DNA of 62,903 nt, from positions 1 to 62,903 of the forward strand of contig DATLUO010000149.1 of the NCBI GenBank assembly GCA_035533075.1. The letters are read 5' to 3'. A model generated the notes under the pieces. That model saw nothing but the letters and a program-made list of their open reading frames with translations. It searched no databases and was not told the DNA's origin. The DNA is from Pirellulales bacterium (GTDB taxonomy: Bacteria > Planctomycetota > Planctomycetia > Pirellulales > JAICIG01). How positions within the stretch are numbered: the first letter of the stretch is position 1; each line of letters begins with the position of its first letter. Shown one piece after another: positions 10,272 through 12,395 of the stretch. Made by a program: the position numbers and the translations under genes.

Positions 10272-11216
10272 TTATTCCGCTCGCGTCACCAGCACGATTC
10301 CGGCGGCGACCGCCGCGCCGCCGACGGCCAGGCTGACGTGCATGGCATCACCGCGAAGCCAGATGCCGAAAGCCATGCCGCACAGCGGTTGCGCGAACCC
10401 GAAGACCGCAATCTGGCTGGCCCGGTGACGCCGCAGCAGGGCCGTCCAGATCAAGAAGCAGAGCCACGCCACGACGACCGATTGATAGGCCAGTCCCCAG
10501 CAAACCGCCGGCGTAAATCGCCACGCCGAATCGGACTCCAGGGTCAAACTCGTCGTAAAAAAGAGGGCCGTCGCCAGCAGGTTGCTCCAGAATAGGAGAC
10601 TGGCGACGCCGACCACGGCCAAAGCCCGTTTGCTCATCACGGTGTTCACGCCGATCAATAGGCTGCTGGCGAGCACGACCGCATCGCCGAACAACGTCGC
10701 CGACTCGCCGGTCGAGGTCGTCTCTCGCCGAACGCCCGCGACGATCGCCACCAGCCCTGCGAAGGCTACCATCAGCCCCAGCAGCTTGCCCGGCGAAACG
10801 CGGTCACCGTGCAACAAGAAGTGCGCCACCAAGGCCACGAACACCGGATAGGAGCCGATCATCACCGATCCGTGGGCGCTATTCGTGTGAGCCATGCCGT
10901 AGTGGAACGAGCCGATCTGAACGAACAGCAGCAGTCCCACGGGCAGAATCGCCGTAAGCTGCCGACGATCGACACCCAGTGATGCGCCCTGCCAGAGCGC
11001 CGTGGGCGCCAGCAGGGCCGTGGCGATGGCAAACCGCAGCCCGGCGGTGGCCAACGGTGGAATGCCGTCCTGCGTGGCACGCACCGCCACGGCCAGTCCG
11101 CCCCAAAGCACGGCGCACAGCACCGCCAGGCTGGCCGCAGCGAACGTGACCGGCCGAAGATCTGTGCTCGCTTGTGTATGGGTTGACGTTTCGGCGGAAT
11201 CACGTAGGGCGGGCAT
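10272..11216 (-). CDS. EamA-family (DMT superfamily) transporter
   Basis: A 314-residue protein from MPALRDSAETST, with about ten hydrophobic segments arranged as two EamA halves. The first half includes LAVLCAVLWGGLAVAVRATQ and HTNSAHGSVMIGSYPVFVALVAHF. The second includes LFGDAVVLASSLLIGVNTVM and FGFAQPLCGMAFGIWLRGDAM. These carriers export or import metabolites; the substrate is unknown. A longer in-frame extension would be encoded by the palindrome at 11301-11384 and is not credible. The ATG itself sits in another short repeat-like motif (GGCGGGCATTGCCCACC). Confidence 0.88.
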   Translation of the reverse strand: MPALRDSAETSTHTQASTDLRPVTFAAASLAVLCAVLWGGLAVAVRATQDGIPPLATAGLRFAIATALLAPTALWQGASLGVDRRQLTAILPVGLLLFVQIGSFHYGMAHTNSAHGSVMIGSYPVFVALVAHFLLHGDRVSPGKLLGLMVAFAGLVAIVAGVRRETTSTGESATLFGDAVVLASSLLIGVNTVMSKRALAVVGVASLLFWSNLLATALFFTTSLTLESDSAWRFTPAVCWGLAYQSVVVAWLCFLIWTALLRRHRASQIAVFGFAQPLCGMAFGIWLRGDAMHVSLAVGGAAVAAGIVLVTRAE

Positions 11217-11300
11217 TGCCCACCAACTTAATGAATGCGGCGGGCGGTGCCCAGGTCCGCTGTTGATGGGGCGGGTCCGGCCGTGCGGGCAACGAAAGGA

Positions 11301-11384
11301 TCTGTAGGGAACGGACTCCGTGCCGTTCCGCCGATCGACGGTCGTTCGGTACGCGCGGAACGGCACGGAGTCCGTTCCCTACAG
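11301..11384. repeat. 84-bp palindrome with perfect 31-bp arms
   Basis: The left arm begins at 11301 (TCTGTAGGGAACGGACTCCG and 11 more bases) and is matched perfectly by the right arm ending at 11384. The loop is about 22 bp. It is unrelated in sequence to the GTAGGGTGGGACC family although both contain GTAGGG. It has no gene of its own. It lies between the EamA gene start and the promoter of the candidate RNA. Confidence 0.95.
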
Positions 11385-11425
11385 AGCAAACCGGCCCCTG
11401 CGCCCGATCGAGCCTGGCGAGAGAT

Positions 11426-11454
11426 TTGCCGCGGGCCGCACAGCGTGATATACT
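11426..11454 (+). promoter_or_regulatory. Sigma-70-type promoter for the candidate structured RNA
   Basis: TTGCCG (11426-11431) and TATACT (11449-11454) are separated by 17 bp, close to the housekeeping consensus. Transcription would begin about 6-7 bases later, at 11460-11461, which is exactly where the closing stem of the predicted RNA begins. Confidence 0.65.
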
Positions 11455-11459
11455 TGGGT

Positions 11460-11589
11460 CGCTGAAGCGATCCAGCACTGGCTCAAGTACCGGCCACAGG
11501 CCGGGGCGTCAGAGCAGGCAGCCAAGCTGCTTCAATCCGGCTTGCCGGAGCGCCAAACCTCCTTTGTGCGTTTCGCTTCAGCGTTTTTT
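11460..11589 (+). ncRNA. Candidate stand-alone structured RNA, about 130 nt, unassigned
   Basis: The predicted 5' end CGCTGAAGCGA (11460-11470) pairs perfectly with TCGCTTCAGCG (11573-11583), which is followed by six T residues. Between them are several hairpins: CCGGCC-ACA-GGCCGG (11490-11504), AGCAG/CTGCT (11513-11517 with 11527-11531) and TCCGG-CTTG-CCGGA (11536-11549). The last two are enclosed by GGCG/CGCC (11505-11508 with 11551-11554). Promoter, folded body and terminator fit one small RNA. It is on the opposite strand to both neighbouring genes and overlaps neither. It lacks the SRP RNA GGAA loop region, is too short for standard 6S RNA, and matches no riboswitch I recognise. Confidence 0.62.
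11573..11589 (+). terminator. 3' half of terminator stem with U-run for the candidate RNA
   Basis: TCGCTTCAGCG followed by TTTTTT. Its pairing partner is the distant 5' end of the same RNA at 11460-11470, so the stem is both the closing helix and the likely intrinsic terminator. Confidence 0.6.
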
Positions 11590-11663
11590 ATGCGCTGTGG
11601 GCAGGCAGACTTTGCCGCGGAGTCGACCGATGCCGATGCACGACTGCGTTCCGAAATTGACCG

Positions 11664-12395
11664 CTACGATCCCAGGTCCATCTCTTGCAGCGTGCGGGCC
11701 AGGCTGATCGAGGTCAACTCTTCGTCGCCGTTTTCAAGCAGAGCGCGCAACGATGGGTCGATCAGGTCTTCCAGCCATTGGCCGAAACGCAACGAACGGG
11801 GCCAGTCTTGATAGCGTTCGTAGGCGTTCAGGTAGACCTCCTCCACCGCGTCGTCGATCGACAACGTGTCGCCCAGGCGGGCCGCCAACGCCGGATAGCG
11901 GTTGATCCAGCGGCTCACGCGGCGGTGCATCGCCTCGTCATAAACGTCGACCGCCCGGCGAAAGGCGGCATAGTCGCCCTCGGCCGCCGCCCGTTCGAGC
12001 ACATCGGGGTTGGGCACGCCGACGGGAATCACGTCGAACTGCGTCCCTTCCTCGTGCTTGGCGATCGAAGCCTTGTTGCCGAGGGCCTCGATGTAGGCGT
12101 CGAGCTTGTGGACCAGCTTATGGACGCAGCGAAGATAAGCGGGATGAACGAGCACGTCGCGGTCGCCGGTGAAAAGCGTGCGGCCGGTCAGCACCAGGCT
12201 CGTTTTCACGTGGAAATCGCCCGTGCGCGGAAAGCGGCTGACGGTCACATAAAGGTCGGAAATGGGGAACGCCTGTGCCCGCGTGCGCAACGTGCCGAGG
12301 TTATCCTCCATCTTTTTGATCTGGCGGGCCGAAAGCCTGCACTGCTTGGTGTCGAGCTGAATCCGCAATTCGTGCTTCTGGTTGACTGGCTTCAT
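11664..12395 (-). CDS. HPF/RaiA-like ribosome-associated domain fused to a sigma-70 region-2-like domain
   Basis: A 243-residue protein with a good ribosome-binding site (AAGGAAG). Residues 1-110 have the hibernation-factor pattern: a short strand (HELRIQLDTK), a helix, strands DLYVTVSRFP and FHVKTSLVLTGRTLF, then the helix AYLRCVHKLVHKLDAYIEAL. Residues 145-220 read FRRAVDVYDEAMHRRVSRWI, SIDDAVEEVYLNAYERYQDW and WLEDLIDPSLRALLE. These resemble the helices of sigma-70 region 2 without an obvious DNA-binding region 4. Family knowledge predicts binding to the small ribosomal subunit; the C-terminal role is open. Confidence 0.7.
   Translation of the reverse strand: MKPVNQKHELRIQLDTKQCRLSARQIKKMEDNLGTLRTRAQAFPISDLYVTVSRFPRTGDFHVKTSLVLTGRTLFTGDRDVLVHPAYLRCVHKLVHKLDAYIEALGNKASIAKHEEGTQFDVIPVGVPNPDVLERAAAEGDYAAFRRAVDVYDEAMHRRVSRWINRYPALAARLGDTLSIDDAVEEVYLNAYERYQDWPRSLRFGQWLEDLIDPSLRALLENGDEELTSISLARTLQEMDLGS

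Follow-up and report, generated by a model that had tools for sequence, protein, structure and literature searches.

A small structured RNA, very probably a trans-acting class, in Planctomycetota and other bacterial phyla

The window, a stretch of 62,903 nucleotides from a Pirellulales bacterium (assembly GCA_035533075.1, contig DATLUO010000149.1), carries on its plus strand, at positions 11458-11589, an element of about 130 nt which, as far as sequence can tell, is a small-RNA gene and a member of a family whose RNAs measure about 120-150 nt. At least about 130 occurrences of the family were found in many bacterial phyla, nearly all of them in uncultivated carriers, and because these roughly 130 homologues show compensatory changes, chance is excluded. 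The family very probably constitutes a real, stand-alone, trans-acting class of structured RNA. Its covariation is strong, its gene anatomy clear and its active core apparently conserved; even so, Rfam 15 lacks it. The alignment and models described here offer a direct route to annotating the RNA and to seeking its transcript in existing metatranscriptomes.

The gene in the window (copy A) is preceded by a sigma-70-like promoter, which can be read directly, as the original prediction had described it, from a -35 element TTGCCG (11426-11431), a 17-nt spacer and a -10 element TATACT (11449-11454). A TG precedes the -10 element. The promoter scan, which also recovers the -10 element, finds no other promoter-like site in 11200-12000, a region in which 0.1 such sites are expected in shuffles. 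About 6 nt past the -10 element lies the 5' arm of the closing helix P1a, CGCTGAAGCGA (11460-11470), the exact reverse complement of which, TCGCTTCAGCG (11573-11583), follows after 102 nt and runs into a tract of six T (11584-11589). Both arms and the tract were read directly, which bears out the 11-nt arm and perfect complement reported earlier. Transcription of copy A would start at about 11460-11461, at the first pairs of P1, and P1 followed by the U tract is a likely intrinsic terminator, which would end transcription in those copies where the tract is present. No open reading frame over the element resembles a protein gene, in agreement with the original prediction.

The same anatomy recurs in the homologues, most of which have a promoter at an equal distance from P1. 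The promoter score is 7.98 upstream of them, compared with 6.06 downstream and 6.52 in shuffled sequence, and in 53 of the 60 homologues with a good score the -10 element ends within -7 to 0 of the model start, most commonly at -3 or -4, and in the majority of good cases 3-6 nt ahead of it, which would place the start at the base of P1. A U-rich 3' end, with five or more T among the final 8 nt covered by the model, is found in 71 of 121 homologues.

The source genome (G000, a planctomycete) carries a second copy, copy B, which is 70% identical to copy A (DNA match E 1e-11), is flanked by a NUDIX gene and a tRNA-like sequence, and has its own promoter (TTGACC, 17 nt, TATAGT) and T tract. Where copy A has a closing C-G pair, copy B has U-A; its P3 hairpin differs in sequence and still pairs. 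Beyond these two copies, a plain DNA search of 57 related genomes returned only a half-element (locus L004) and a 20-nt match, so that covariance models were needed. The model R1, made from copies A and B, found two further members in the same order, and R2, made from four sequences, found members across the phylum, Brocadiales included, so that R1 and R2 between them reached other families, orders and classes. A core DNA pattern requiring GGGGCGTCAG, ATCC and GGAGCGCC was scanned over 84,980 genomes and gave at least 117 loci; R2 confirmed 74 of the first 80 listed, most with E<1e-14, and also most of the remaining 37 listed. R3, made from 100 sequences, matched 13 of 148 Desulfobacterota genomes (nine or ten strongly) and 5 of 145 Verrucomicrobiota genomes (four strongly), and with stricter filters gave no match in 299 Pseudomonadota genomes. 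Copy A is matched by all three models and scores 109 bits with R3, the training set of which includes it. Covariance-model searches of genomes, the check that the original prediction had proposed, found homologues with compensatory changes, and in these the 5' and 3' arms pair, as that prediction implied they must.

Several candidates were discarded along the way. Pattern matches in Streptomyces, Sphingomonas, Caballeronia, Ramlibacter, Thermobacillus and four other genomes are attributed to chance, as there is no covariance-model match in those genomes, and a match in Bradyrhizobium has no model match at its locus. An apparent third copy in the source genome (L195, 1485-1615, contig G000:C135) is a long inverted repeat of GGCGTCAGG units, the weak model match of which is a false positive.

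The carriers belong to Planctomycetota, Desulfobacterota, Verrucomicrobiota, Acidobacteriota, Gemmatimonadota, Nitrospirota, Bacteroidota-related lineages and others, and usually contain one copy, sometimes two or three. Nearly all are metagenome-assembled genomes (MAGs), in which lone occurrences in odd phyla are possibly binning errors; this applies to the single occurrences in Paceibacterota, Spirochaetes, Atribacteria and Legionellales, the last in a MAG that has two copies. Among the matches listed, the nearest relative comes from the same phylum in 73 of 93 cases, where 19 would be expected, and for this reason the RNA appears to have been resident for a long time and often lost, rather than to have moved recently. 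To our knowledge, a distribution over this many bacterial phyla is rare among structured RNA classes, and the classes that have it have mostly proved to serve basic functions. The RNA is probably an ancient, previously unrecognised trans-acting class with a conserved pseudoknotted core, which may be catalytic or may be the RNA partner in a ribonucleoprotein (RNP); only a small share of the species would carry it, in at least seven well-sampled phyla of mostly uncultivated bacteria.

Pairing in the family was assessed on 100 aligned relatives with a mean pairwise identity of 54%. Standard pairs occupy 93.1% of 3,368 base-pair cells, compared with 72.9 +/- 0.5% after shuffling, and two-sided changes number 690 against 193 +/- 17 in shuffles. 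Covariation is 0.521 against 0.170 in shuffled data, and sliding columns by 1-3 positions reduces it to 0.05-0.10; the alignments behind these values were fitted to a model that had the tested structure, which favours that structure, the pseudoknot PK1 excepted. Wobbles at paired columns comprise 118 G-U and 35 A-C, an excess that assigns the RNA to the plus strand. Taken together, these patterns are the mark of a fold held by selection in many phyla. Since the pattern scan required GGGGCGTCAG, ATCC and GGAGCGCC, conservation at those sites is inflated in the 100-sequence set, and conservation of unpaired letters was read from an unbiased set of 31 sequences found by the model without the pattern. 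The unpaired positions at least 90% identical in that set are mainly those of GGCGUCA and GCGCC, two A of AAGUA and the U before P1b, and the P3 and P4 loops vary.

The window element itself has a minimum free energy of -62.0 kcal/mol, compared with -46.0 +/- 4.1 for 200 dinucleotide shuffles, none of which is as low (z -3.9). In the family layout, the RNA is closed by P1a and P1b, an internal loop of AAGUA and GGCGUCA connects P2 to P2b, P3 is optional, and P4 is followed by GCGCC and the PK1 strand. P1a pairs covary and are 91-98% paired in the 100-sequence set. Within P1a, the helix test on the same set supports P1b, formed by GCAC (11475-11478) and GUGC (11566-11569), with GCAC/GUGC, GUAC/GUAC and CGAC/GUCG among homologues and 92% pairing, and P2, formed by GCUC (11481-11484) and GAGC (11512-11515), with GCUC/GAGC, GCCC/GGGC and GUCC/GGAC and 99% pairing. 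The conserved internal-loop strand AAGUA (11485-11489), two positions of which reach at least 0.9 in the unbiased set, is followed by P2b, CCGGCC-ACA-GGCCGG (11490-11504), seen in the sequence and in the helix test, and by the nearly invariant single strand GGCGUCA (11505-11511), the seven positions of which range from 0.90 to 1.0 in the 31 model-found sequences. The variable P3 hairpin (11516-11532) is missing from some Desulfobacterota copies. P4, UCCGG-CUUG-CCGGA (11536-11549), is 99.6% paired, its fourth pair being CG, UA, GC or AU, and leads into GCGCC (11550-11554), a nearly invariant single strand, and ACCUC (11557-11561), the 3' strand of PK1.

At least three stable hairpins had been proposed for copy A. 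The hairpins P2/P2b, P3 and P4 are conserved and this part holds, but an extra hairpin of the minimum-free-energy structure at 11550-11571 is unconserved in homologues and was rejected; the stretch it covers contains the invariant single strand GCGCC, the pseudoknot strand ACCUC, and the GUGC that pairs back to 11475-11478.

PK1 pairs the P2b loop with the strand that separates P4 from P1b. The original prediction had included neither this pseudoknot nor P1b, the conserved core, copy B or the wide distribution. PK1 was part of no covariance model used, is paired in 87% of cells in the 100-sequence set, and shows two-sided changes in all five of its pairs, with GAGGU/ACCUC, GAGAU/AUCUC, CAUGUC/GACAUG, CAGGUC/GACCUG and other pairings. 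The complementarity between loop and strand scores 14.2 for native partners and 12.1 +/- 0.2 for partners exchanged among sequences. In most homologues the 5' strand (GAGRU) sits in a longer P2b loop, and most members, like copy B (GAGAUGUC/GACAUCUU), have PK1. Copy A matches the model over its full length, with the covarying helices P1, P1b, P2, P2b and P4, and has a promoter that would start the RNA at P1; its P2b loop is reduced to ACA, which leaves it with ACCUC as the 3' strand of PK1 but with no 5' strand. The window copy may be a diverged paralogue lacking this strand, copy B being complete. The copy at locus L017/L121, in which the P2b hairpin has collapsed, is likewise without the pseudoknot loop. 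A second pseudoknot between GGCGU (11505-11509) and GCGCC (11550-11554) is suggestive only: A-U replaces G-C at loci L019 and L199, and mismatches occur at L018, L013 and L200.

As to what the RNA does, binding of a protein in trans is tentatively preferred as a mechanism that is quite possible. Transcription would start at the first pairs of P1, where the promoter-like site places it, and the RNA folds, by the sequence evidence, into the helices P1a/P1b and P2/P2b, P3 in those copies that have it, P4, and PK1. The strands AAGUA, GGCGUCA and GCGCC around P2 and P4 would form one compact working core; this core would bind a protein encoded elsewhere in the genome, the RNA acting as an RNP or as a protein-controlling RNA. 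The preference for protein binding follows from the placement of the conserved letters, which are found in the core; the hairpin loops, the expected site of antisense seeds, vary. Such core conservation would be expected of an RNA that is protein-binding, ligand-binding or catalytic, and less so of one acting by antisense.

A catalytic RNA, self-cleaving or other, or a ligand-binding one, in which the pseudoknotted core would be the active site, is the next candidate and a somewhat unlikely one. Small self-cleaving ribozymes such as twister, pistol, hatchet and the HDV-like ribozymes have a compact pseudoknot-held core with conserved unpaired letters, and the arrangement here, in which conserved letters in the P2 internal loop and beside P4 are joined by PK1 and no conserved seed is exposed, is the layout of a small ribozyme or aptamer. 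However, no Rfam ribozyme matches, and a single-copy, stand-alone gene with its own promoter at P1 is atypical of self-cleaving ribozymes embedded in longer transcripts; a ligand-binding role is weakened by the lack of linked genes such as riboswitches have.

Rather less likely again is a classical antisense small RNA that pairs with mRNAs through its loops. Like many regulatory small RNAs, the element has its own sigma-70-like promoter and, in many copies, a U-rich 3' end, but the loops of P3 and P4 vary or are absent, conservation lies in the structural core strands, and no conserved exposed loop that could serve as an Hfq/ProQ-type seed is present in the 31 model-found sequences. The 16S-tail-like ACCUCCUUU of the window copy is a pseudoknot strand that changes with its partner elsewhere, and the idea that it acts as an anti-Shine-Dalgarno sequence was rejected because this strand covaries with the P2b loop. 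A mechanism of some further kind is improbable.

The genomic surroundings bear on a cis-acting, riboswitch-like leader of a neighbouring gene, which is very improbable. The element is intergenic and the nearest open reading frame begins a median of 150 nt downstream, as would suit a leader, but at the listed loci this frame is on the same strand in 56 cases and on the opposite strand in 43, and an all-against-all comparison of the open reading frames within 3 kb of the 117 listed loci found no family in more than five loci. The absence of a recurrent neighbour and the mixed strand of the downstream gene argue against a leader and for a trans-acting RNA. In the window the downstream gene (11664-12395) is on the minus strand, opposite to the element. 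It had been taken for a ribosome-hibernation-like gene, a description that finds no support, as Pfam at E<1 gives no such domain (S30AE) for its product; the product shows a sub-threshold match to sigma-70 region 2 near its C-terminus (17.7 bits, cut-off 24), and a PDB search returned nothing relevant. The role in translation or stress deduced from this neighbour loses its support, given the missing hibernation domain, the opposite strand and the lack of a recurring neighbour in the 117 listed loci. At two Pirellulales loci, L076 and L148, the copy lies near a divergent gene which we take, from sequence alone, to be uroporphyrinogen-decarboxylase-like; an open reading frame of this kind occurs at 5 of the 117 listed loci, which is no general link.

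A structured single-stranded DNA element, such as an integron attC site, a REP sequence or another mobile palindrome, would account for the long inverted ends formed by P1 and for the palindromic repeats beside some copies, but is hardly credible in view of the one to three copies per genome, the lack of a recurring transposase or integrase, the promoter at fixed spacing, the bias of G-U over A-C and the pseudoknot; moreover, the exact pattern occurs in no viral contig, and one query each gave no plasmid or phage DNA match.

A lineage-specific replacement of 6S RNA, which is likewise a stand-alone small RNA of similar size class with its own promoter, is highly unlikely, since 6S RNA (RF00013) is matched at other loci in 13 of 16 carrier genomes (8 above the Rfam cut-off) and is not found in the other three of the 16 tested, the source genome among them, so that the RNA is no 6S substitute in most carriers; RF00013 does not match the window element, and a long bubble hairpin in 6S RNA contrasts with a branched, pseudoknotted fold here.

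The comparison with known families gave a similar picture. None of the 4,227 families of Rfam 15 reaches its gathering score over the element, either in the window or in 18 homologous loci, and relaxing the search to E<=10 yields chance-level matches only; elsewhere on those 18 loci the only matches are tRNAs. The original prediction of a discrete small RNA that is not SRP, tmRNA, RNase P or 6S is upheld by the lack of any Rfam match. The raiA RNA, OLE and similar stand-alone bacterial RNAs have strongly conserved, ornate or pseudoknotted folds and unsettled functions; neither raiA RNA nor OLE matches in Rfam, and the present RNA is shorter and occurs in different phyla. Acido-Lenti-1 (RF01687) is reported as a candidate RNA from Acidobacteria and Lentisphaerae that was judged not to be cis-regulatory (PMC2864571). 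Its taxa overlap those of the new RNA, but Rfam gives no match to it in the window or in the loci, which include one from Acidobacteria. Searches of the open-licence literature, and term searches within three discovery papers (PMC8632094, PMC2864571, PMC11109978), yielded no description of the RNA. At the level of RNA class it is new by this comparison, as no known family matches it in sequence and structure.

Some individual loci deserve mention. The half-element at L004 (1479-1555, genome G001 of the same family as the source) consists of P3, P4 and the following strand without P1 or P2, and has the appearance of a degenerate copy; a GNAT-like open reading frame lies upstream of it. In the Brocadiales genome G397, two copies lie about 1 kb apart on one contig (L013, 528-673 and 1501-1645) and a third lies at L030, each with a promoter-like sequence upstream. 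In the window, a near-perfect long inverted repeat with 22-nt arms GGAACGGACTCCGTGCCGTTCC (11301-11386), possibly MITE/REP-like, ends about 40 bp before the promoter, and similar palindromes adjoin the element at L009 and L010. A divergent subfamily with GAUCAAAUAUCGG...CCGAAGCGUCAGAUC and a UGCGGA/UCCGUA P4 is found at L019, L020, L199, L200 and L201, with fragments at L192 and L193, and comes from Planctomycetota genomes and from genomes of the Desulfobacterota and Verrucomicrobiota searches.
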